A stretch of 48,110 bases of DNA from contig JAEEGS010000062.1 in assembly GCA_016280445.1 (NCBI GenBank), positions 1 to 48,110 on the forward strand, given 5' to 3'. Under the pieces are notes generated by a model that searched no databases, was not told where the DNA came from, and saw nothing but the letters and a program-made list of their open reading frames with translations. A program made the translations under genes and the position numbers. Source of the DNA: Bacteroidaceae bacterium (GTDB lineage: Bacteria; Bacteroidota; Bacteroidia; Bacteroidales; Bacteroidaceae). Of the stretch, positions 24,198 to 45,728 are shown one piece after another; position 1 is the stretch's first letter; every line of letters starts with the position of its first letter.

Positions 24198-27100
24198 CTA
24201 TTTCACCATAATCTTCTTGGTCTGTCCATCCTTTGTGCGGACGAAGTTCAGTCCCTTCTGAAGGGCTGGGATGCGTACACCTGCGGCATTGTAGATGCCC
24301 TCGAGTGCGGTGGCGGTTTCGCCTACAGACTGTATGTCGGTGACATCTGACTGCTTCTTCAGCTTGCACTCTGCCAGCAGGAATTCGGTGTAACCGCCAG
24401 AGGTGGATGCGAACTGGATGACATAATTGCCGGCTGTCGTCACCTTGAACGCCAGCGTGTTGTGCTTGGCTGAGGAGATGTTGCCAGAAGTGCTTCCATT
24501 CACGTTGGGGCTTGCTGTATAGGCGTCTGATGACGCTATGATGGCATTCTCGCTGTTGAGAATGTTCACTTGATACGCAGGTGTTCCCTTCCATGCGGCA
24601 CTGGCAAAGGTCAGCTCGTAGGTGCCAGGCTCCAGAGTCAGGGGATATTGCGTCTGACGTCCGTACTCAGCACTGGTGTTGCGCCAGTAGAGCGCCTTGC
24701 CTTGATAGCCTGTGAAACCAGTCATGGTGCGTGGACCCGTACTGTTGGTGGTTGGATATTCACGCACATTGGTGCCATCGGTGGTGCGCCATCCTTTGGG
24801 GAAGTCACCATTCAGCACTTCGCTGAAATCAAGCATGTAGATGGCTGTTGGGTCGTAGGTAGAGAAAATGGGCAGGATAGTCATGTTGTCGTCTACCATG
24901 TTGAAAGTCACCTCAGTGGCGCCCAGATCTACGGGGATGGTCAAATCCTGCGTGTAGAAGACGGAGTTGATGACCTTCAGGGCTTTGATGCCATAACCCT
25001 CATTAGGTGTGATGGTCAGCGTCACTTCCTCTCCCTCTTCGGCTTCGCTCACATTGGAGGTGATGGTTCCCTCGGCTGTTTCACGGATGAAGACACCGTA
25101 CTTTGGTGCTGCTACGTCGGCAGGGGTGTAGGTTACGTTGTCAATGAAGAGGGAAACTCCACCCGTGTTGGTGATGATGAGTGTGTTGTTACCTGCTTTC
25201 ATCTCTGTGCTGCACGTGATGGTCTTCCACTCGTTTTGTGCCGTCTTGTCATACTTGAGCGTCTTTCGTCCGTTGATGGATACAGCCAAACTGCCTCCCT
25301 TGTTAGGCGAAGTGTAACGAATGGTCACGTTGTAGGTGCCTGCTTCCTTGATGTTGATGATGTGTTTGAGTGCTCCAGATGTGTTGGTGCCCATCTCTAC
25401 AAAGCCCATACCGGCATGTCCACGCATGTTGGGGTACATGTTGAGTGGGATGTTGCCATTGCTTGTACCGCAGCAGGCTTTTATGCTCTTGTAGTCCATG
25501 TCCTCAGCCTCGATGGTGATGGCTCCATGGAACTCCTCTGGCTGCTTGGGCAGGTCTTCGGTGAGGGGTGTCTGGCTCACTTCGTCGGTGCTGCGCTCTG
25601 TGGCTGCACCTTCACAGTTGATGGTCAGGTCAATAGGACCCATGTGGCTCACATTCAGTGTGAACGTTCCTGTTTCGGCATCCCATTCAGATGTGGTGCT
25701 CAAGGTTGCAGCGCCACGTTTCTTCGTGGTGAAAGTGGGTTCGGCTGTGGCACCTTTCACGACAATCTTGTCAAGAACCTTAGTCATTGAGTCAGTTCGG
25801 TAGTTGTTCAGATAGAAGTCGATGTGGTCGGCATGCTCGTGAATGATGCCGCTGCTCAGTTTTCCGTAAGTCAGTTCCAATGTCTCGCAGGTGTTGTACT
25901 GCAGGGGGATGGAGGCTGTTGCGGTGGTCTTCTTGTTCAGGTAGGAGTAGGGCGTGTAGGTGACCAGTTGGTTTTTGTAGCGGTTGACGTAGAGGTCGCC
26001 TGTGCTCACTTCGGGATAGTATTTGTTGAAGTCTCTTGTCTTGAGCGTTTGTGAAGACCATTTTGTGCCATTTTTAACGGCACTCTTCTTGATCTGTAGG
26101 GGAATGGTCTTTGCTGTTTCATCATACAGGCTGAGGCAAACAGGGATGGCTCCATAGCGACCTGTCTTCTTGAAGTAGCAGTAGTTGTTCATCCACCGTC
26201 CATCACTTCTGTTGAAGGGGTCGGTTTGCTTGTAGACTCCATCGTAGAGGTCTCCCCAAGCGGCATACTTCTCTTCGTCGGTGCCTGATGAAATGTCGTT
26301 GATGACTGCAATCTTTGTTTTTGCCACCACTTCTTCACGGGTGGGAATGTACATGGTGCCGTCGATAATCTTGCGGAACATGTCAATCCATGCATTGTCG
26401 AACCCTGGATATTTGGCCCAGTTGCGGCGTGTGTAACCATTTACGGTTGTTTCTGGTTTATTCTGGAAGTCCTCTGTCCAAATCAATTCAGGGCCGTCCC
26501 ACACAGCACCACCGTTCACACAGGTCTGCTCCATTACCGTGCCGATGCCAGCAGACACGGGATATTTGCATAATCCCTCGCCAACAAGGTCGTTTGTAGC
26601 ACCGTTCCAACCACAGTTGTCATAGCGCACGCCATAGTTCTTGGCCAAACCCGAAATGAAGGGTGACCAGGTGACACTCTCGTTGTTGTAGAAGCAGGAG
26701 GAAGTGGTGTACTTATAGAGCCACAGGATGGCTTCTGGATAGTCTTGGCAAGCTTTCAGCAGGTCTTTGTTGCGCTTCATCATGCCCACGGGATTGAGAA
26801 GATGACTCCAGATGTTACCACAGAAGGAGATGGTGAGGACGCCGCCATACTTGTGGTGCATGGGCACCAGTTTTGCAAACAAGGCGATGCGTGATTCTTG
26901 CGAACTTGAACTCTTATCGCCTGCTGCGTCAAAGCCCCAGAACTGCTCGGCATAGTTCCAACCGAGGAAGTTGGGGTAGGTCTTGAAGAAGTATTCGAAA
27001 GTTTCCAGGTCGTCGTCTTGAATGTGGGTGTGACCACCACTGGCTGGCTGGCAAGTGAACCACATGCCGTTGTGTTGACACACAGATGCCCATGACCTAA

Positions 27101-27368
27101 AGGTGCGGACTGCATTTTGTGGTTTCTCGTAGACGTTTTTGTCAGTCTTGTAACTGCATGAAAGCGACAGGTTCATGCACACATACGGCTTGATGTCGTC
27201 GGGAATCAAGTCGATGATTTTCTGTGGGTCTGCCTGATTCCACACATCCACATGGATGAGCCACATGGGGTGTTTTGAGTCAATGGGTCGGCGCTCTTGT
27301 GCGCTTACTGTTTGCACGGCTACCAACAGCAGCACGGCAAGCAACAATTTGGTAAAGATCGTTCTCAT
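24198..27368 (-). CDS. Secreted GH98 glycoside hydrolase with CBM and T9SS signal
   Basis: 1056 residues. Signal peptide 1-23. The catalytic GH98 domain (about 33-350) opens with M-W-L-I-H-V-D-V-W-N-Q-A-D-P-Q-K and contains P-Y-V-C-M-N-L-S-L-S-C-S, C-Q-P-A-S-G-G-H-T-H and G-W-N-Y-A-E-Q-F-W-G-F, with a likely catalytic Glu in the last. A beta-rich GH98 C-terminal domain follows (about 360-600), then a CBM6/35-like module (about 630-755, I-E-A-E-D-M-D), an InlB-type repeat (757-838), another beta-sandwich and a C-terminal T9SS-like signal. Characterised GH98 enzymes are endo-galactosidases acting on blood-group glycans or endo-xylanases on complex arabinoxylan; the sequence does not settle which. 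No SusC/D or other PUL gene is adjacent. Confidence 0.85.
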   Translation of the reverse strand: MRTIFTKLLLAVLLLVAVQTVSAQERRPIDSKHPMWLIHVDVWNQADPQKIIDLIPDDIKPYVCMNLSLSCSYKTDKNVYEKPQNAVRTFRSWASVCQHNGMWFTCQPASGGHTHIQDDDLETFEYFFKTYPNFLGWNYAEQFWGFDAAGDKSSSSQESRIALFAKLVPMHHKYGGVLTISFCGNIWSHLLNPVGMMKRNKDLLKACQDYPEAILWLYKYTTSSCFYNNESVTWSPFISGLAKNYGVRYDNCGWNGATNDLVGEGLCKYPVSAGIGTVMEQTCVNGGAVWDGPELIWTEDFQNKPETTVNGYTRRNWAKYPGFDNAWIDMFRKIIDGTMYIPTREEVVAKTKIAVINDISSGTDEEKYAAWGDLYDGVYKQTDPFNRSDGRWMNNYCYFKKTGRYGAIPVCLSLYDETAKTIPLQIKKSAVKNGTKWSSQTLKTRDFNKYYPEVSTGDLYVNRYKNQLVTYTPYSYLNKKTTATASIPLQYNTCETLELTYGKLSSGIIHEHADHIDFYLNNYRTDSMTKVLDKIVVKGATAEPTFTTKKRGAATLSTTSEWDAETGTFTLNVSHMGPIDLTINCEGAATERSTDEVSQTPLTEDLPKQPEEFHGAITIEAEDMDYKSIKACCGTSNGNIPLNMYPNMRGHAGMGFVEMGTNTSGALKHIINIKEAGTYNVTIRYTSPNKGGSLAVSINGRKTLKYDKTAQNEWKTITCSTEMKAGNNTLIITNTGGVSLFIDNVTYTPADVAAPKYGVFIRETAEGTITSNVSEAEEGEEVTLTITPNEGYGIKALKVINSVFYTQDLTIPVDLGATEVTFNMVDDNMTILPIFSTYDPTAIYMLDFSEVLNGDFPKGWRTTDGTNVREYPTTNSTGPRTMTGFTGYQGKALYWRNTSAEYGRQTQYPLTLEPGTYELTFASAAWKGTPAYQVNILNSENAIIASSDAYTASPNVNGSTSGNISSAKHNTLAFKVTTAGNYVIQFASTSGGYTEFLLAECKLKKQSDVTDIQSVGETATALEGIYNAAGVRIPALQKGLNFVRTKDGQTKKIMVK

Positions 27369-35173: not shown

Positions 35174-37384
35174 TCAGAACTCAAAACCGAGGTTGAGATA
35201 GAGGTGTACCTTCTTGGTCTCGTTCGTATAGCCCATCGTGGCGCCTAACGGACCGACGACGGTGTTGTAGTAGTAGGCGAGTTGACCACCCAGCATCGTT
35301 TTGTGCTCGAACACATGCTTGAACGCCTCGTCATGTTGTGCTGCTGCCACCCGTAAGAGGATGAAATGGTTGGTGAAAAGTCGCTGCTGTCCCTGTATTT
35401 GCAGGGCGAGGAAGTGCCTGTCGGTATATTCGAGGTTGCCCACTCCCGCAAAGGGCATTTGCTGCTCCACGTAGTGTCCGAACCACTCCCCTCCGATGGT
35501 GTTGCCATAGATGACGGGAATATTCGCTCCGAAAAGGCATCTGCCATAGAGCAGAGGTTGCAAGGTAAACCGCTTGTTGAAGGGGATGGAGGTGCGCCAG
35601 TTGGCATTGATTTCGCTCACACCTGCCTTCTTGTTCATCTCGGCAAAGTTGTCGGTCACGTAGGCATATTCCATATTGAAACGTGAACCAATCGTAGGGA
35701 AGTTCCAGTTGTCCTCCGAGTTATACTTGACCATGGCGCGATAGCTGATATAGTGGTCGTTATCCAGTTTGATGGACTTGTTACCCGTGGTCAGGATGTT
35801 GCCAAGGAAGTGGATGTAGTCCCATCGGAGGGTGGTTTGCAGATTGAAGTTGCGCACGTTGAAGTTGAAAGGCGTCAGGTTCGTCTGGTGATGGTTGTAC
35901 TTGAAGCTGTGGTCTCGTTCACCTTCTTGGTAGATGTCCATATCGTTGTGGCGATAGACATAGGAGATGCTGGGTCGGGTGAAACTGCGTGGATGGAAGG
36001 TCAGTTCCCCCTTTCCCATGATGCGTTTACCCAGTCGGAGGGTCACATCCATGTCGATAGGGATAGCTGTCGAAAGCGGATGGTCGGCATTGACCTGCAG
36101 CGCCAAAATCTCTTCCGTGTCAAAGCGTCCACCCAGGTTCACTTGACTGGTCTTTTTGTTGCCAGCAGTGAAGTAGAGGATGTAGCCGTCACCCTCCTGA
36201 ATGGAACGGGTATCGACCGTCTGATAGAAGAGGTCCACACGCATGGAGGTGGCAATCTTCTCCTCCTGACGGGAGTCGATGCTGTCGTATCTGCTCAGAT
36301 GGAACTTTGAACGGATGAAGTGCTCATCGTGAGGTGTAACATTCTCAAAGACAAAGCCCTTGACCTTCACCTTCTCCGTCAGCACGGACGCACTTTTTGG
36401 GGTGAGGATGGTGGGTTTGAAATCGTCGCTGATACCGATTCTCCGTTTAAGGGCAATCAATTCATCCCAGTGTTTCATCGCTTCTTCCTCGCCTCGTCGG
36501 ATGAGTTCGTTGATGGCATTGTCGGTGAAGCTGGCAGCATTGTACCCCTCGGTGTTCACACGGATAGGCACATCGGTGATGGCCAAGTTCTCATCGTATT
36601 TGTTCTTACAGTTGACATCGATAATCTGGCTGAGGATGCTGATGGTGTGTCCCAGATCCTCACTCGTCTTGGGTGCACCCTGAACGGTCACACCAATGAT
36701 GATGTCGGCACCCATCTCACGGGCGATGTCGGCTGGGTAGTTGTTCCTCAAACCACCATCCACCAGCACCTTATCACCGATGCGTACAGGGGAGAAGGCA
36801 GCTGGAATCGCCATCGAGGCACGCATGGCCTGTGGCAAACGGCCTGCATGAAAATCATGTTCTGTATTGTCAATGATGTCGGTCGCCACACAGGCAAAGG
36901 GAATGGGAAGTGAGTCGAAATCCAACGAGTCTGTATACCCCAAACAGAGTTTCTGGAACAGCTGTGCGAGGTTCTGCCCTTTGATGATACCGCCATCGTT
37001 GCTGTTGCTCTTGCCCAACGTGAATCCTCGTGAGAATGCGTAGGTGTTCTGCTTCTCACGGTCACGCAGACTTTGCTGACTCATGTCCTCACGGTCGGAG
37101 AGGGTATAGTTCCAGTCGATGGTGCGCACCAACGAATCAAGGATGTTGGCATTGTACCCAATCGAATAGAGTCCACCCACGATGCTGCCCATGCTGGTGC
37201 CCGTGACAATATCCACAGGAATGCCCGCCCGTTCAATCACTTTCAGCGCTCCAATGTGCGCCATACCCTTGGCACCACCGCCACTCAGCACCACTGCCAC
37301 CTTCTTCCTTTTCGGTTCGGCATCTTGACACCACACAGTGGTCACCATCAAAAACGTAACAATCAGTAGTAATATCTTTTTCAT
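35174..37384 (-). CDS. Patatin-like phospholipase fused to an outer-membrane barrel
   Basis: 736 residues. Signal peptide 1-19. The patatin domain (about 27-320) shows the oxyanion loop G-G-G-A-K-G at 35-40, nucleophile Ser64 in G-T-S-M-G-S, and catalytic Asp209 in V-D-G-G-L-R-N-N-Y-P, so the Ser-Asp dyad is complete. About 325-385 resembles a POTRA-like linker (V-K-G-F-V-F-E-N-V-T). From about 385 to the end, amphipathic strands ending Y-L-N-L-G-F-E-F indicate a barrel of the BamA/TamA kind. This is the layout of PlpD-type (type Vd-like) proteins: a lipase domain exposed by its own barrel. It lies upstream of sprA on the same strand with a 130-bp gap. Confidence 0.9.
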   Translation of the reverse strand: MKKILLLIVTFLMVTTVWCQDAEPKRKKVAVVLSGGGAKGMAHIGALKVIERAGIPVDIVTGTSMGSIVGGLYSIGYNANILDSLVRTIDWNYTLSDREDMSQQSLRDREKQNTYAFSRGFTLGKSNSNDGGIIKGQNLAQLFQKLCLGYTDSLDFDSLPIPFACVATDIIDNTEHDFHAGRLPQAMRASMAIPAAFSPVRIGDKVLVDGGLRNNYPADIAREMGADIIIGVTVQGAPKTSEDLGHTISILSQIIDVNCKNKYDENLAITDVPIRVNTEGYNAASFTDNAINELIRRGEEEAMKHWDELIALKRRIGISDDFKPTILTPKSASVLTEKVKVKGFVFENVTPHDEHFIRSKFHLSRYDSIDSRQEEKIATSMRVDLFYQTVDTRSIQEGDGYILYFTAGNKKTSQVNLGGRFDTEEILALQVNADHPLSTAIPIDMDVTLRLGKRIMGKGELTFHPRSFTRPSISYVYRHNDMDIYQEGERDHSFKYNHHQTNLTPFNFNVRNFNLQTTLRWDYIHFLGNILTTGNKSIKLDNDHYISYRAMVKYNSEDNWNFPTIGSRFNMEYAYVTDNFAEMNKKAGVSEINANWRTSIPFNKRFTLQPLLYGRCLFGANIPVIYGNTIGGEWFGHYVEQQMPFAGVGNLEYTDRHFLALQIQGQQRLFTNHFILLRVAAAQHDEAFKHVFEHKTMLGGQLAYYYNTVVGPLGATMGYTNETKKVHLYLNLGFEF

Positions 37385-39255: not shown

Positions 39256-42200
39256 TTATTCCATTGGTTTTATCATCGACTCGATAAAAGCGATTTCTTC
39301 ATCTGACAAGTTGTATTTCTTGTAGAGTTCTTCGTCTGTCCAAGGTTTGGTGAAGTCTTGGAGGGGAACAAACATGAATTTGTCTGCTGACAAATCTTGC
39401 GAGGTTAATGTTGGAAGAATTAAGCCACGTACAAATTTCGTTTTGAGATACGTAAGGTAATTTACCGCTTCTTCAACATTCTCGAATACGCCACCAACAA
39501 GATAGCTTTGTGTACAGATCTCATTCGGCTTCAATATCTTCATTGTAGAGAACACTCTATACATTCCATTTCTATCTGGTGTTCCTGCATGTTCACAAGT
39601 AGCCTTTGAGAATATGACCTTATATAAGTCTATCCAATTCTTGTTTTTCTTCACTTCGCTCAGTTTTACATAAGTAATTCCCCCACTTGTATATAAAGCC
39701 ACATCTCCTTCTTCTCTTCGTTCTCTACCACGATATGTGGTGACGAAGCCAAAAGGAGTCTGAGGACTAATCTGTGACGACAAAGAAGGCTCATTCTGCT
39801 GTTTTATCTGCGATATTAACGAAAGCGCAGCATTTTGCCTAGTGAATATCTCATATTCATCCAATTTTCTTAAAAGGTTAGTCTCTTGAGCGTTTACTAT
39901 AGAATGGAAATCGCATAGTCCTGAATAATTTGTATCCCAAAGGAAGTAATTGATACCACCCGAAATATCAGCCGTCGGAAAGATGTCCTTGGCATCAATG
40001 AAGTCTTTAATGTAACGAATTCTACGATCCTTCAGCATGGTTTTTCTGAATTCTTCCAGTCCACGACCACCTGTAAACCACCTTGATGGAGAGATCATAG
40101 AGATATACATGGGTTTTAGCGCCTTTGAAATATTTATAAAGTGATTGTAGATGGGAATTCCATAATTGTCTTTCTTTTCTCCGACATTCACTTGATACGG
40201 TGGATTTCCCACTATTGCGTCTAATTTCATATTCTCATTATTATTGATTTTCCAGAAGTGCTTGCCGTCCTTGAAGGTATTGACAACGGCTGTTGGCTTC
40301 TTGGATATGTTCTTGATTAAGTCTTTATAATATTGTGCGTTCACTCTTGTGTTTCTGAATCCAGCAAGAGTGCGTTTGGTGATGCTTCTTGCCATAGGTG
40401 TCTTGCACACCACCAAGATGTTCTCTTCAATGGTGACATCCCACAGCATCATTGCCATATTATGATTCACATCACCATATTTCTCTTGGGTGGCTTTCAC
40501 TCTATTCCTGTATATATTATAGGCTACATACAGAGGATAGAGACCGCTCTTGGAATTGATTTCCAGCACGTGTGCATCTGTCTTGAACACATCAGTAGTT
40601 ACTTGTCCCCTGTCCACATAACGAGGCTCATTCAGCATCTGCTTAAACTCATCATCATAAAAACACCAGCCACCCAGACAGTCGCTCATGTGCATATTCA
40701 CCACTCGCCAAGGAGTCAAGACGGTTTCCTTGTCGGGATTGCGGAAAGTGTTGAAGATGGTGGCAAGTCGCTCAATACGTTCTTCAATGGTGAACTTGTC
40801 AGCAGCTCTTGCCATTTCCCTGATGCGTTTGCCTGCCTCACGGAACACGTCTGCCTCGTAATATTTCTTGAAGTTCTCAAAGTCATCCTTGGTCACACCC
40901 TTTGGCATGAACTCTTCCCAAGACACATCATCCACCAAGTTGGTGAAGTTGTCAATGGTCAGTTCCTCTTCCTCGTTCTTCAGTTCTGCACCATAGATAA
41001 GCAACGGCATTCTGATGCTGATGCCACGCAGGATGCTGATGGCTTCAGCCCTCTGTGTCTTTTTCTTTTTCAGCTCATCCAACCGTGCTTTCTCTTCTGG
41101 CGTGAGGTCTTTCTTCTTTTTCTTCTCCAGCTTTTCCTTCTCAGCATATTCCTCTTTGGTGAAACCTTGCTGGTTCACATCGATGTCGCCACTCTTTGCC
41201 ATCGCCTTGGTGGCACCAATCTTGCCCTTCAAGTGCTGGAAAGCAGCCAATTCCACATCCGTCAGTTTCAGCAGTTCGTCATTATAGAGCGCTCCATCCT
41301 CGAAGCCACATTGCACCACCTTCTCAATCTGTGCCTTCTTCAGCTGACCCATCATCGTCTTCACATCGTATGGCTTCATCTGGCTGCCCTCAATGGAGAT
41401 GATAGGACAGAAGTTCAGGAAGTCACCCAATATCTGCCTGTCTCCATCCGTCTGTTTGCCTGCCTTCGTCGATACCTTTGCCGCTTCCGCCAAGACTCGG
41501 AGTGTCCTGTCCGGCGCAAAGTCAAAGGCATAGCATTGCTCCTTCATGCGACCGTTGTGGCAGTAAGGTGTCTGTACACGGAAGATGGTCTGCATATATC
41601 CAGCCGCAGAAGTGCTGAACGAACCAGCCATCATGAACACGCCCGTCCAAGGCTTCACGCTCACGCCTGTGGTCAGTCGCCCACATGAGAGGGTGATGGT
41701 GTATGTTTCATCGGGATCTTCTCCAATAGCCTTTTCCACCATCTTCAATGCCTCAGCATTTTCCTCATCCTTGTCACCATCGCCAGCCACATTCACCACC
41801 TTGAACAAACCAAAAACAGCATGCGCCTGCAGTTTCGCACTAAGTGCCTTGGCTGCCTTCACGCCTGGCACCATCCAGAGTGTGTGCCTGAAGATGCGAC
41901 GGTATTCATCGTTGGAATAGGGGTAGAGACTGTCCTTGTTATCCCTGCACATCAAATCCAGAAACCGTTCCACATCCTTGTCATGAACAAAGCTGCCGTC
42001 ATCCTTGGTGCGGAAGAACTCACGGAAGTTGAAAGCCTTTTCGTCTTCCACAAACTCGCTCATCAGGTTGCCCAGGTCGTAGGTGTAGATATTGATGGCA
42101 GGAAGCGAAGCGTATGGATTGGGTTCGTAAGGATTATCCACAGCCCAAGCCTGTTTCGCCTTCTGCTCCATCACGTAATCCCAAGTGTAGATGTCCGCTT

Positions 42201-43176
42201 CTGCATAGTCATCAAAGAGGTTGAACGGAGTGCCTGAGAGTTGGAGCACCTTGGTCTTTTCCTTGGTCAGCTCTTTCAGCACATTTTGCCCCAGTTCGGT
42301 CTTCGTGCCCTCATGTGCCTCATCCACGATGATGAAATCCCAAGGCGTGCTGAACACACGGTCGTTCTTGTCAAACTTTCCTCCTACAGTCTCTGAACCT
42401 CTTAAATCCTGCATGGAGGCAAAGAACACATATTTCTGTCCTTTTGCCACCATTCTCTCCAATGAGCCAAAGTCCTCCCCGTTGATGCGTGAACCATAAC
42501 GATAGTCCTTCCTGTCGTAGAATATCTTGCCGAAGTCCTCAAACCATCCCTTGTCCACCACAGGGCGATGGGTCAATATCAAGGTACGCACGAACTCCTC
42601 TTCCTTCACTACCTGCAAGGCTGAGAGGGTCTTGCCGAAACGCATCTTGGCATTCCACAGCATCTGGTTGCCTTTCTTGAAACGTGTCCTTGTCCTGTCT
42701 ATCGCCTCACGCTGTTCAGGACGGAAGATGATAGGTGTCTGCCCTTGGGTGATGTCGGAAGCATGCAGGCTTGTCTCACCTTTCTTCACGGCCTTGATGG
42801 CTTTCTTCACCGTTTCAAGGTCACAGCAATACCATTCATCCGCTCCCTTCACATCAGCAAACTCCTTCTTGGGGATGCCACTACGCTCCAGCACCTTATG
42901 CACCTGCTTATCGTTGAAGGAGAGAATCATGCCACTCCTTCTGAAAATGGTGTCCTCCGTATAGAGCAGCTGATAAGCGATGCCTGCCGTCTTGGTGTAT
43001 TGGAGGATGCGCTTGTGAGCCGCTTGGTTCAGCAGATCAGAATTGGGTGAGAGGTCACCACCATCATCTTCATTGAGGGTGGTCTCGCCAATCTTCAAAC
43101 AGTCACGATGCCGTTCGTCGTTGATGGCGAACACATAAATCAGTTTGGATTTCAGGGATGAGGTAAAGGTTGCCAT
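39256..43176 (-). CDS. Single-chain restriction-modification-like enzyme: GIY-YIG nuclease + SF2 helicase + adenine methyltransferase
   Basis: 1306 residues. N-terminal GIY-YIG (T5orf172-like) domain: I-Y-V-F-A-I-N at 13-19, K-I-G-E-T-T at 28-33, H54/R56, E74. SF2 motor: Q-motif F-R-P-E-Q at 151-155, motif I A-K-M-R-F-G-K-T at 176-183, D-E-A-H at 285-288, S-G-T-P at 314-317. A Lys/Glu-rich helical coupler lies near 690-740. The methyltransferase core has E-I-N-S-K-S-G-L-Y-P at about 873 and the catalytic N-P-P-Y at 991-994. The rest is probably target recognition. The order nuclease-motor-coupler-methylase-recognition is that of Type ISP enzymes (LlaGI, LlaBIII), but with a GIY-YIG-like nuclease and an odd SAM motif. 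The start is 8 bp after the partner gene's stop, so it is co-transcribed. Confidence 0.8.
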   Translation of the reverse strand: MATFTSSLKSKLIYVFAINDERHRDCLKIGETTLNEDDGGDLSPNSDLLNQAAHKRILQYTKTAGIAYQLLYTEDTIFRRSGMILSFNDKQVHKVLERSGIPKKEFADVKGADEWYCCDLETVKKAIKAVKKGETSLHASDITQGQTPIIFRPEQREAIDRTRTRFKKGNQMLWNAKMRFGKTLSALQVVKEEEFVRTLILTHRPVVDKGWFEDFGKIFYDRKDYRYGSRINGEDFGSLERMVAKGQKYVFFASMQDLRGSETVGGKFDKNDRVFSTPWDFIIVDEAHEGTKTELGQNVLKELTKEKTKVLQLSGTPFNLFDDYAEADIYTWDYVMEQKAKQAWAVDNPYEPNPYASLPAINIYTYDLGNLMSEFVEDEKAFNFREFFRTKDDGSFVHDKDVERFLDLMCRDNKDSLYPYSNDEYRRIFRHTLWMVPGVKAAKALSAKLQAHAVFGLFKVVNVAGDGDKDEENAEALKMVEKAIGEDPDETYTITLSCGRLTTGVSVKPWTGVFMMAGSFSTSAAGYMQTIFRVQTPYCHNGRMKEQCYAFDFAPDRTLRVLAEAAKVSTKAGKQTDGDRQILGDFLNFCPIISIEGSQMKPYDVKTMMGQLKKAQIEKVVQCGFEDGALYNDELLKLTDVELAAFQHLKGKIGATKAMAKSGDIDVNQQGFTKEEYAEKEKLEKKKKKDLTPEEKARLDELKKKKTQRAEAISILRGISIRMPLLIYGAELKNEEEELTIDNFTNLVDDVSWEEFMPKGVTKDDFENFKKYYEADVFREAGKRIREMARAADKFTIEERIERLATIFNTFRNPDKETVLTPWRVVNMHMSDCLGGWCFYDDEFKQMLNEPRYVDRGQVTTDVFKTDAHVLEINSKSGLYPLYVAYNIYRNRVKATQEKYGDVNHNMAMMLWDVTIEENILVVCKTPMARSITKRTLAGFRNTRVNAQYYKDLIKNISKKPTAVVNTFKDGKHFWKINNNENMKLDAIVGNPPYQVNVGEKKDNYGIPIYNHFINISKALKPMYISMISPSRWFTGGRGLEEFRKTMLKDRRIRYIKDFIDAKDIFPTADISGGINYFLWDTNYSGLCDFHSIVNAQETNLLRKLDEYEIFTRQNAALSLISQIKQQNEPSLSSQISPQTPFGFVTTYRGRERREEGDVALYTSGGITYVKLSEVKKNKNWIDLYKVIFSKATCEHAGTPDRNGMYRVFSTMKILKPNEICTQSYLVGGVFENVEEAVNYLTYLKTKFVRGLILPTLTSQDLSADKFMFVPLQDFTKPWTDEELYKKYNLSDEEIAFIESMIKPME

Positions 43177-43184
43177 AGTATCTT

Positions 43185-44198
43185 TTATTTCATGAGGTCA
43201 ATAAATCGGATTTTTCTATTATTTTCGCCCGTTTTGAGATCTTTGTTTCCCCAATCACGAAGCAGGCAGTAGATGCCGTTGTGCCGTCGGATGTCGTCTT
43301 GCTGGCAACCTGAGCAATGAACTATCTGTTCTTCCTCGCCAAAGAGGGTTTGGATTTTCTCTTTCACACCATGCCTGCACGAGTCAGGCACAACGCCCTT
43401 CAATCCATCCATCTGGAAGAGATTCCACGAAATGATGTAAGCGATGTAGTTGATGGATTTCACAAGAGGAGCCTTGCCGAACTTCTCTTGATAGTATTCA
43501 ATGAACGTCCATAGCAAAGCTTCACGAGCCAGCAGCAGATTGTCGCCTTGCCACTCGAAACCATAAGTGTGCATGTAAGCTATTTGTGCCCAATCCAGCC
43601 AGTCGCCACTAACATCCACATTCTCGCTGATGACCCGCAGTTTCCTGTCGAGCAGACCTATTCGTTCTTGCAAGGGAATGGGTTCGCCCGTCGTGGCATC
43701 ATATCGGCTGACGAGATAGGGAGCCTCGCCACAAGTCATTTCCATACGGGTGGCTCTCACATAGTCCTTCCAGGTCTTTCCTTCAGGGAATTCTATTTTG
43801 TCGGGGTTGGATTGCCAAGTATGGCCGGTCGTGTTTTCCACATTAAATACGTCCTTACGTCCAAACCACGCTTCGTCCACCAAATTGTTCTGCGCATTGC
43901 ACACCCACGAAGGGGTGAACACCTCTGCCATATCCTTGGCTCGGTCTGTCTGCTCAGCCTTCGACTTCAGCACACGCGGTCTGATGACCATTCCATTCTC
44001 GCCTGTAATCAGTTCAGGCAGTATCTGCGAATGGTAATCATACGCTGAGCCGAGCGCTTCATAGTCATGCGTCGCCCAGAAGATGTTATTCCCTGTGGTG
44101 TGGTCACGCAGCAGCGTCTCAAGCACTTCTGGTGAGATATCCCTCAGGTCGTCCTCCCTGATGTCGATACAGGCAGGACTCAATTCCTTGTTTGGCAT
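43185..44198 (-). CDS. Methyltransferase-like partner ('restriction subunit M'-like) of the single-chain enzyme
   Basis: 337 residues from ATG 44198; an open frame from TTG 44258 begins inside the terminator of the upstream RNA and is rejected. A-E-V-F-T-P-S-W-V-C at 91-100 is the helical F-T-P motif before N6-adenine methyltransferase cores. T-C-G-E-A-P-Y-L at 155-162 resembles SAM motif I ([DE]-P-x-C-G-x-G-x-[FY]). Y-G-F-E-W-Q-G-D-N-L-L-L-A-R at 212-225 resembles the strand holding SAM. No [DNS]-P-P-[YFW] catalytic motif is present. Near the C-terminus C295-x-x-C298 and C311 could bind metal. It likely assists or completes methylation by the downstream enzyme; that is inference. Confidence 0.65.
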   Translation of the reverse strand: MPNKELSPACIDIREDDLRDISPEVLETLLRDHTTGNNIFWATHDYEALGSAYDYHSQILPELITGENGMVIRPRVLKSKAEQTDRAKDMAEVFTPSWVCNAQNNLVDEAWFGRKDVFNVENTTGHTWQSNPDKIEFPEGKTWKDYVRATRMEMTCGEAPYLVSRYDATTGEPIPLQERIGLLDRKLRVISENVDVSGDWLDWAQIAYMHTYGFEWQGDNLLLAREALLWTFIEYYQEKFGKAPLVKSINYIAYIISWNLFQMDGLKGVVPDSCRHGVKEKIQTLFGEEEQIVHCSGCQQDDIRRHNGIYCLLRDWGNKDLKTGENNRKIRFIDLMK

Positions 44199-44256
44199 TC
44201 TTTGTGCTATGCATTGATGCGTATTGCTTATCTTCGGAGGCAGACTATTAGGACAC

Positions 44257-44288
44257 AAAAAGCATGAACGATATTCTCATCCATGCTT
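44257..44288 (-). terminator. Rho-independent terminator of the structured RNA
   Basis: On the minus strand AAGCATG (44288-44282) pairs with CATGCTT (44266-44260), with an inner GAT/ATC pair, and the stem runs into TTTTT (44261-44257). The left arm overlaps the 3' side of the closing stem GCTTCAA/TTGAAGC, so the two folds compete in part. Confidence 0.75.
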
Positions 44289-44485
44289 CAAAGGCCCTAG
44301 GAATAGCCTGCCAACCCAGATAAGTCACGCCCATGCTTAACGCACAGACGTTTGCGACTTATTCTTTCGGGTTGAACTATCTTGAATTTCCTAGGTTCTT
44401 GAAGCAATTCCGAATAACAGCAAACGCTTGTTATTATTTTCATTATGTCACATTGGCACCTCCGCTGAGGCTGTTGCCAATGATT
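44257..44485 (-). ncRNA. Candidate structured RNA of about 229 nt with its own promoter and terminator
   Basis: On the minus strand, downstream of a perfect promoter, the RNA can fold as follows: hairpin 1 ATTGGCA/TGCCAAT plus CCTC/GAGG (44481-44452); hairpin 2 AATAAC/GTTATT plus AGC/GCT (about 44437-44415); a long closing stem GCTTCAA/TTGAAGC (44405-44399 with 44291-44285) and CCTAGGAA/TTCCTAGG (44395-44388 with 44303-44296); an open internal bubble; then AACCC/GGGTT, ATAAGTC/GACTTAT and AACG/CGTT. A terminator ends it. No reading frame explains it. A closing stem, bubble and terminal arm recall 6S RNA, but I cannot confirm any family. It could instead be a leader of the restriction genes, whose start is 59 bp past the terminator. 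Confidence 0.65.
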
Positions 44486-44490
44486 GAATA

Positions 44491-44521
44491 CAAAGGTACA
44501 ACATTTTTTTCTCTTTCCAAA
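44491..44521 (-). promoter_or_regulatory. Bacteroidetes promoter of the structured RNA
   Basis: On the minus strand TTTG (44521-44518), 19 nt, TACCTTTG (44498-44491). The start codon of the nearest gene is almost 300 bp away, but the structured RNA begins within a few bases. Confidence 0.85.
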
Positions 44522-44674
44522 TAAATTCCGCTCTTTTTCATTCACAATCACTAGCCAAGAGGGAAAAAGTCTTTCTATGCTCCCGTTTTTCACAAAATAA
44601 CAAATCGGTTGCTCCACTGCCTCTTGTCCCTCTGCTCTACAGCCTCCTTTTCGGTGCTTCCACTGCCTCGGAAA

Positions 44675-44739
44675 CGGTGTGAGTCACACCGCCACCCTCG
44701 GTCTGAGTCAGACCGACCCCCTCGGTGTGACTCACACCG
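44675..44739. repeat. Tandem palindrome array C (3 units, exact 24-bp period)
   Basis: CGGTGTGA-G-TCACACCG (44675-44691), CGGTCTGA-G-TCAGACCG (44699-44715) and CGGTGTGA-C-TCACACCG (44723-44739) are perfect 17-bp palindromes separated by 7 nt (CCACCCT, ACCCCCT). The middle unit differs at one arm position and the matching base in the other arm is changed too, a compensatory pair. Confidence 0.95.
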
Positions 44740-44836
44740 ATTTTGGGGTAGTGGAGGTGTCGTGTTGGTGGTTCTTCAACAGAGTAATATGTGGCAGTGG
44801 AAGTCGGAAGACAAAGGGACAACAAGCTGTTACAGC

Positions 44837-45090: not shown

Positions 45091-45696
45091 TTACAGCATC
45101 TTGAGCGCCATCTTGATGACCTTCTCGACAGGGGCGGAAGGCTCGTCCTTGAGGATGGCTTTGACGGTCTTGGCAACAGGAGCAGGCGGGAAGCCGAGCA
45201 TCTTGAGGGCTTCGAAGGCTTCGTTGTAAACCTCGCTGTTGGGGGCGGCTGCTGTGTTGCTTGGCTCGCCAGATGGGCTTGTGGCCGCAATGCCGAGCGA
45301 AACCACCTTGTCGCGGAGTTCCACGATGATGCGCTGGGCGGTCTTGGCTCCCAGTCCCTTGACTGTCTTGAGCATACGCTCGTTGCCTTCCATGATGAGT
45401 CCTGCCAGTTCGGGGGCAGAGAAACTGCTGAGCATGGTGCGGGCCGTGTTGCCACCCACGCCGCTGACGCTGATGAGCATGAGGAAGAGTTCGCGTTCCT
45501 GTTTGGTGGCAAAGCCGAAAAGTGTCCATGCATCCTCGCGGATGGACTCATAGACAAAGAGGCGTGCCTCGCCCTTACCTTGCAGGGCGGTGTAGGTGTT
45601 CAATGAGATGTTGAGAAGGTAGCCGACGCCATGCGCCTCGATGGTGGCTTGAGTGGGGGTGAGTTCGTCGAGAATTCCTCGGATATATTCAATCAT
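45091..45696 (-). CDS. ruvA: Holliday junction branch migration protein RuvA
   Basis: 201 residues from ATG 45696, the usual size; a longer frame from 45723 runs into the -7 box and is rejected. RuvA tetramers hold the four-way junction for the RuvB motor. The OB-fold start is M-I-E-Y-I-R-G-I-L; helix-hairpin-helix motifs are S-G-V-G-G-N-T-A and V-K-G-L-G-A-K-T-A-Q-R-I; a flexible Ser/Pro/Ala-rich linker (about 134-150) precedes the RuvB-binding domain (Y-N-E-A-F-E-A-L-K-M-L-G-F). In several Bacteroidetes ruvA adjoins sprA; here accessory genes lie between. Confidence 0.96.
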   Translation of the reverse strand: MIEYIRGILDELTPTQATIEAHGVGYLLNISLNTYTALQGKGEARLFVYESIREDAWTLFGFATKQERELFLMLISVSGVGGNTARTMLSSFSAPELAGLIMEGNERMLKTVKGLGAKTAQRIIVELRDKVVSLGIAATSPSGEPSNTAAAPNSEVYNEAFEALKMLGFPPAPVAKTVKAILKDEPSAPVEKVIKMALKML

Positions 45697-45720
45697 GTAA
45701 AGTTTAAAGTTTAGAGAAGG

Positions 45721-45728
45721 CAAAGGTA
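45721..45728 (-). promoter_or_regulatory. -7 box of ruvA
   Basis: TACCTTTG on the minus strand, 24 bp before ATG 45696. The -33 region is occupied by the purine-rich hairpin repeat and has no clear TTTG. Confidence 0.7.

Follow-up and report, generated by a model that had tools for sequence, protein, structure and literature searches.

A structured RNA family upstream of restriction-modification operons in Bacteroidia: candidate cis-acting leaders with two predicted alternative folds

INTRODUCTION

A restriction-modification operon in a Bacteroidaceae bacterium is preceded by a structured mRNA leader. The leader belongs to a diverged, multi-copy RNA family that is widespread in Bacteroidia and apparently undescribed. 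Sequence comparison supports its helices P2 to P6, and a pseudoknot that ties them together, by very strong covariation, and the stretch between this core and the gene is predicted to form a second fold that excludes the first. The best overall explanation, which we rate as a little better than an even bet, is a cis-acting bistable leader whose most likely mode of action is transcription attenuation. In the taxonomic family to which the bacterium belongs, the genes under its apparent control are mostly restriction-modification operons, often with the methyltransferase gene first.

Several kinds of RNA bear on this explanation. The SAM, cobalamin and lysine riboswitches and the attenuator leaders have a conserved core followed by a strand-exchange region before the gene. 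The D12-methyl RNA motif is a candidate cis-element upstream of DNA adenine methyltransferase genes. 6S RNA, a housekeeping RNA, is present in a single copy per genome. To our knowledge, restriction-modification systems have so far been found to be controlled by proteins or by DNA inversion.

The window analysed here is a stretch of 48,110 nucleotides (contig JAEEGS010000062.1 of assembly GCA_016280445.1). An earlier, sequence-only reading proposed a 229-nucleotide structured RNA at positions 44257-44521, on the minus strand, and offered three identities for it: a 6S-like housekeeping RNA, a leader that controls the restriction genes by termination, or an RNA component of a defence module. Here we report the structure, distribution and genetic context of this RNA and weigh what it may do.

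RESULTS

The leader and its operon

Read off the sequence, the minus strand carries a promoter at 44491..44520, with TTG at 44520-44518 and the -7 box TACCTTTG at 44498-44491; together these fit what we take to be the Bacteroidetes consensus. A promoter scan of 43900-44700 found no E. coli-type sigma-70 site. Of 71 non-redundant copies of the RNA, 57 have the motif TAnnTTTG no more than 160 nt ahead of the core, against 5.7 in mononucleotide shuffles. The promoter proposed from the sequence is thus borne out, as one of the Bacteroidetes type. Between it and a ruvA-like gene (45091-45723), the stretch 44670-44740 holds imperfect repeated palindromes, GTGTGAGTCACAC and GTCTGAGTCAGAC.

The RNA predicted at 44257-44521 is real, but its end at 44257 does not stand: the leader continues to the start codon at 44198, and the stretch 44490-44199 (minus strand) is the mRNA leader of the restriction operon. 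The originally proposed interval folds at -89.5 kcal/mol (z -6.8), and none of 200 shuffles was equally stable; for the whole leader up to the gene the folding z is -6.4. The claim that the interval holds no reading frame was too strong, in that mechanically called ORFs cross it (for example 44297-44617, minus strand), yet leader ORFs are shorter than shuffled ones. Closed ATG ORFs average 18.8 aa in the leaders and 23.5 aa in shuffles, and one of at least 20 aa is present in 31 of 71 leaders. A leader-peptide attenuator was rejected on these lengths and on the lack of a conserved short frame.

The operon is of the restriction-modification type, as judged from its two genes. The first (43185..44198, minus strand) encodes a 337-aa protein like type II DNA methyltransferases (PADLOC MTase_II PDLC03390, E 2.2e-125) with no Pfam or NCBIfam match. 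The second (39256..43176, minus strand) encodes a type IIG-like protein of 1306 aa with a ResIII helicase and an Eco57I methylase domain (Pfam Eco57I 8.8e-31 and ResIII 4.4e-13; PADLOC REase_MTase_IIG 7.9e-57). Elsewhere in the window, 24198-27368 and 35174-37384 encode a GH98 glycosidase with CBM domains and a patatin-Omp85 fusion.

Architecture of the core

The two 5' hairpins noticed in the sequence are found at 44482-44451 and 44435-44413, both in the fold and on reading the sequence, and the predicted fold also contains the long closing stem with a bubble and a nested arm. All the elements that follow lie on the minus strand. P1, the 5' hairpin of the predicted fold (44451..44482), has the form CATTGGC..CCTCAGCGGAGG..GCCAATG. 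In the P2 hairpin (44413..44435) the loop CGTTTGC, at 44426-44420, pairs with 44355-44349; this is the pseudoknot PK1. The closing helix P3 (44285..44405) joins 44405-44399 to 44291-44285, and within it P3b (44296..44395) joins 44395-44388 (CCTAGGAA) to 44303-44296 (TTCCTAGG). Further in are the sequence-variable helix P4 (44312..44374; 44374-44369 with 44317-44312), the nearly invariant helix P5 (44320..44362; 44362-44356 with 44326-44320) and the hairpin P6 (44327..44351; 44351-44342 with 44336-44327), which has conserved G-U pairs. In the whole-leader fold, a further hairpin with a U-run, P7 (44257..44288), uses the P3 3' strand in its lower stem.

The 5' end is the more changeable part. 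The GCGGAGG motif of the P1 region is present in most copies from the genus and is altered or absent in many more distant ones, and P1 is exchanged in some copies for a longer, multi-hairpin 5' domain. In L006, L007, L008, L012, L014 and L018 this domain has CGTCA..TGACG and a second hairpin ahead of the CTCAGCGGAGG hairpin. L005 and L007 have near-identical cores with unlike 5' domains, which suggests recombination between copies. Incomplete copies also occur in genus genomes: L025 ends after P2, L013 near the 3' end of the core and L022 at a contig end.

A diverged family with many copies

An Rfam search suggested by the sequence-only reading matched no family, 6S included. The window has no match at the Rfam 15 gathering scores, and permissive Rfam scans of the element and of five loci with homologues returned only sub-threshold matches. 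With blastn the interval matches 23 of 45 genus genomes, four of which (G015, G017, G037 and G038) match at the promoter end only. From 19 genus copies, mostly beside restriction genes, we built a covariance model of the core (R1). It finds seven matches in the bacterium's own genome, three of them weak (E 1e-6 to 4e-3). The six copies other than that of the window lie ahead of different genes, and their P3 and P4 sequences are not alike, which is what one would expect of cis elements.

R1 finds matches in 200 of 399 family genomes, a set that includes the genus genomes used to build it; these tallies include the bacterium's own genome. A second model, R2, built from 100 copies, finds matches in 140 of 393 order genomes, 73 of 345 class genomes and 26 of 296 genomes of a phylum sample, one of the 26 lying outside the class. 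The searches at these four ranks scored the best 7 to 10 candidates per genome, and the many genomes without a match serve as a control for specificity.

A DNA-pattern search of named genomes gave at least 118 stretches, and R2 confirms 104 of the 118 listed (71/80 and 33/38). Thirteen of the 14 listed stretches that R2 does not support come from records named outside Bacteroidota and one from Bacteroidaceae (L233). This named sample overlaps the close sample used below, through the same records (for example L205/L003, L204/L087, L242/L078, L251/L077 and L267/L098); the copies of the RNA in L003 (G011:C11) and L205 (JAFSKK010000061.1) are 99% identical. Named isolates that carry a copy include Segatella copri Indica, Prevotella disiens JCM 6334 and Porphyromonas pasteri JCM 30531. 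One confirmed copy (L249, 500-644) lies in a metagenome bin named Sulfurospirillaceae, outside Bacteroidota, by transfer or mis-binning. Plasmid and phage collections searched with the window sequence gave no match. In IMG/VR the pattern had 15 hits, of which the model accepts one as a true copy (L316, 2044-2186); the next gene on this contig, which is filed as viral, resembles by eye the N-terminus of a type I restriction subunit.

Covariation in the helices and the pseudoknot

The sequence-only reading had named compensatory change in the stems beforehand as a test that could refute it, and the stems show such changes strongly. Mutual information, a structure-free statistic computed here on an alignment of 98 copies fitted to R1, ranked P3, P3b and P4 at the top, followed by P5, P2 and PK1, with P6 lower. 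(This test and the core-to-downstream pairing tests below did not use L070 and L071.) Short GGC/GCC and GAA/TTC flanks around P3b also covary (pairs 126-137, z 11.0, and 36-50, z 5.2).

In alignment A4, made of 73 named or viral copies, 92.7% of the pairs are standard. Cells changed on both sides number 751, against 230 in shuffled alignments and 86-167 with slid partners; structure-fitted alignments favour the structure, and it is the slid-partner controls that give the size of the effect. Helix by helix, P3 is 97% paired with both-side changes in all seven pairs, P3b 99.8% with all eight pairs double-changed, P4 94.4% with all four modelled pairs double-changed, P5 99.2% and P6 92.0%. Alignment A3 exceeds its controls on all five covariation measures; in A4 one of the five, the number of further pair types, does not exceed its shuffles, 70 of 500 of which were as high.

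PK1 was the best of 110 helices tested in each of three alignments. In A2 it is 91% paired, with 59-68 double-changed cells. In the mutual-information test above, its pair 10-83 has a z of 6.7. Its double-changed cells number only 4-6 in A4, where the pattern used for selection fixed part of PK1.

Genes downstream of the copies

The close sample comprised 100 loci, two of them without an ORF before the contig end; G262:C94 had been dropped beforehand, its contig being too short. With ORF starts picked mechanically, the next ORF begins 50-130 nt after the core in 83 of 98 copies and 74-110 nt after it in 70. In the named sample a start lies within 350 nt of the core in 69 of 73 copies.

By clustering and Pfam, 71 of the 98 next genes are restriction-type, a share biased towards such genes by the origin of R1, which came mostly from copies beside them. 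Methyltransferase-like genes make up 55 of these 71, both figures being sums over clusters assigned through annotated representatives. The 71 comprise 19 EcoRI_methylase genes, 15 SNF2 helicases (some with PLDc, none with a methylase of its own), eight MmeI, seven type II MTase, six MmeI-like/Eco57I pairs, five HsdM, four N6_N4, three D12 and four single cases: an N6_Mtase with a specificity domain, two Eco57I and a DUF4011/MTES_1575 protein. In the six pairs the first gene matches MmeI_Mtase below the Pfam cut-off and Eco57I is in the second gene. Also counted among the 71 are two short proteins with no Pfam match of their own (L118 and L163) and an ORF that starts 491 nt after the core (L139). 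The remaining next genes encode LRR proteins, PAP2, acyltransferases, a redoxin and further secreted proteins, and weaker copies are more often upstream of non-restriction genes.

In the named sample, picked by DNA pattern, 69 ORFs were tallied from the first 80 listed stretches and one viral copy. The overlapping Pfam counts are led by EcoRI_methylase 14, MmeI_Mtase 11, N6_Mtase 10, Eco57I 10 and N6_N4 8, and 40 of the 69 are restriction-type when only genes that cluster with annotated representatives are counted. For the 60 nearest upstream ORFs, the top 25 of 102 Pfam families include no methyltransferase family with two or more members. The PADLOC candidate PDC-S02 is matched by three of the 60, which means that there are defence-like genes among the upstream neighbours as well.

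The association with restriction genes is not exclusive. That homologues always accompany them, a possibility raised from the sequence, is false, as many copies precede other genes. In the other direction, the RNA is present at eight of the 30 EcoRI-type methylase loci examined (48 genomes matched); of these eight, two score weakly (38.9 and 31.5 bits) and a contig end truncates one. Distant copies are often upstream of secreted proteins: of 14 class-level loci inspected by eye, nine precede a protein with a signal-like N-terminus, and in one (L334) the protein resembles a type IIG enzyme. The proteins encoded next to three order-level or named copies (L167, L171 and L225) are alike, starting MKLSEILKGSE or MKLSEVLKGSE. 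At L074-L088 and other loci the gene after EcoRI_methylase often looks, by eye, like what we take to be DUF262, and the two may form an uncharacterised two-gene restriction system.

Pairing between the core and the stretch before the gene

A stretch that resembles an expression platform, and whose pairing would be exclusive with the core, is present between core and gene. We compared the pairing of each core strand with its own core-to-gene stretch against mismatched partners taken from other copies. In 47 non-redundant copies own-copy pairing is better for the P3 3' strand (p 8e-10), the P6 3' strand (p 4e-9) and the junction (p 4e-7). A control segment, the P2 region, also beat mismatched partners (p 3.5e-5), so relatedness inflates these p-values; for this reason the test was repeated in 71 copies by scanning every window of the core's final 105 nt. 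There the P3 3' strand, the GGGCC and GGC strands and the P6 3' strand reach t -6.8 to -8.2, and other windows reach -4.8 at the strongest. The P3 and P6 3' strands find their partners no further than 40 nt past the core (t -7.8 and -8.2) and the junction strand 20-70 nt after it (t -8.2). Extra pairing of the P5 3' strand is weak (p 0.02 in 47 copies; t -3.6 in the scan), and strand exchange that includes P5 lies outside our main claim.

In the window copy, the strands with alternative pairings are 44291-44285, 44312-44303 and 44336-44329, and their partners are the P7 region and 44248-44239. The junction strand 44312-44303 pairs with 44239..44248 (GGCAGGCTAT with ATAGTCTGCC, minus strand) in the MFE fold of the whole leader, and 44269-44262 is complementary to the P6 3' strand, 44336-44329. 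Because the P3, P6 and junction strands are shared by both folds, the folds are mutually exclusive. In a comparison of single helices, the P3 3' strand pairs more strongly with its own 5' strand than with the downstream partner in 41 of 47 copies, and P6 energies are about equal in the two folds. Folding of 40 whole leaders, without constraints and without pseudoknots, nevertheless gave the P3 3' strand a downstream partner in 31 copies and one in the 5' half in nine. In class-level copies the region ahead of the gene looks different by eye.

The terminator claimed for the RNA is a borderline case in the window copy. The predicted fold has a 13-bp hairpin at about 44288-44257 that adjoins a U5 run and shares sequence with the closing stem, but a strict terminator scan does not call it. 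By raw count, 40 of 47 copies have at least four consecutive U no further than 60 nt past the core.

DISCUSSION

We consider it very probable that the RNA is a cis-acting leader, and more likely than not that two exclusive folds are used in the cell. That the output is transcription attenuation rather than something else is a tentative assignment, with rather less than an even chance. In fold A, which the covariation demonstrates, the core forms P3, P3b, P4, P5 and P6, tied by the pseudoknot from the P2 loop. In fold B the roughly 70 nt after the core would capture the P3 and P6 3' strands and the GGC junction strand, and the complementarity observed there would allow, on refolding in the cell, an extended hairpin beside the U-run. 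If a ligand, a protein or slow folding kept the core intact, P7 would be cut short and the polymerase would read on; if not, P7 would form fully by the U-run and transcription would stop. The leader-control option offered from the sequence thus gains from the spacing, from the copy-specific pairing of core and downstream stretch, and from the genes downstream; that transcription ends there is what we infer. The mixed set of downstream genes points to no ligand. SAM sensing, a thought prompted by the methyltransferases, was set aside, as many targets do not look SAM-dependent.

The main rival, which we think unlikely, is that the leader acts on translation, with refolding that masks or exposes the region of the first gene where ribosomes bind. 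The alternative partners are all found in the 110 nt or so that follow the core, near the start codon, and over 40 copies the start region is less open in the full leader than in its 3' half alone (0.40 vs 0.48, p 0.004). A hairpin seems by eye to cover the ATG in some copies, but the 40 copies do not support one as a general feature: with the 60 nt just ahead of the ATG, the start is as open as in shuffles (0.45 vs 0.47, p 0.83). The frequent U-runs after P7 also speak against control at this level. More doubtful still is a separate trans-acting RNA of about 230 nt, for example one that is bound by a restriction protein or titrates a regulator, with the downstream gene expressed by read-through. 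Such an RNA would fit the promoter motif of its own, the terminator-like hairpin and the very strong fold. It would not explain why the spacing to many unrelated genes is similar, why the core matches the pre-gene leader copy by copy, or why P3 and P4 differ among copies within one genome; gene spacing and cis-specific pairing thus disfavour a trans-acting role. Nor is a component of the defence system supported, since copies also precede acyltransferase, PAP2, LRR and other secreted-protein genes.

Somewhat less probable again is that the RNA governs mRNA stability through catalysis or processing, as a self-cleaving RNA or a landing site for RNase, or that it marks a conserved cassette boundary where accessory genes are swapped. 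The nested pseudoknots are ribozyme-like, the genes downstream are exchangeable accessory genes, and mosaic (L005/L007) and incomplete copies exist. Against this, no Rfam ribozyme was matched, and a DNA boundary needs neither covariation at the RNA level nor an alternative fold. We give almost no chance to the housekeeping 6S RNA that the stem-and-bubble outline had suggested. RF00013 is unmatched in the window and in the bacterium's own genome, while five of 14 control genomes give a match; the seven own-genome copies, with different accessory genes downstream, refute this identity in practice.

What remains best supported, a cis-acting leader that may act by attenuation, has likenesses among known systems. 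It shares with riboswitches a pseudoknotted conserved core followed by a strand-exchange region, a hairpin, a U-run and the gene, and has both a covarying structured core and a same-strand position in the 5' leader. It differs from them in that several core strands (P3, the junction and P6) are contested by the downstream region, in having no Rfam match, and in that its targets, methyltransferase and restriction operons and surface or secreted proteins, suggest no apparent pathway. The D12-methyl RNA motif is likewise a structured RNA ahead of DNA methyltransferase genes; a literature search for this motif found nothing. The 6S RNAs (RF00013 and RF01685) have a similar stem with a large internal bubble, whereas the leader RNA is multi-copy and gene-linked and has other conserved elements.

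Protein and DNA-level controls act on similar genes. C proteins of restriction-modification systems are reported to time the expression of methyltransferase and nuclease; here the control element would be an RNA, ahead of type I, II, IIG/IIL and III-like systems. Inversion of DNA in Bacteroidales controls surface proteins, restriction systems and SusCD, according to PMC12632263. That gene set is similar, but the mechanism lies in the DNA, as against conserved RNA pairing here. 6S-Flavo RF01685 is named in a table of PMC2864571. A search of open journal papers, among them the main texts of PMC2864571, PMC11109978, PMC8632094 and PMC12632263, turned up no description of the RNA.

If our reading is correct, a dominant group of gut and rumen bacteria harbours a large, so far overlooked orphan class of RNA, present in several copies in many of the genomes, and unrelated restriction-modification systems would have an RNA-based control in common. 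The question of which signal switches restriction on and off in Bacteroidales would then become testable, with the covariance models and the named isolates that carry a copy as starting points.
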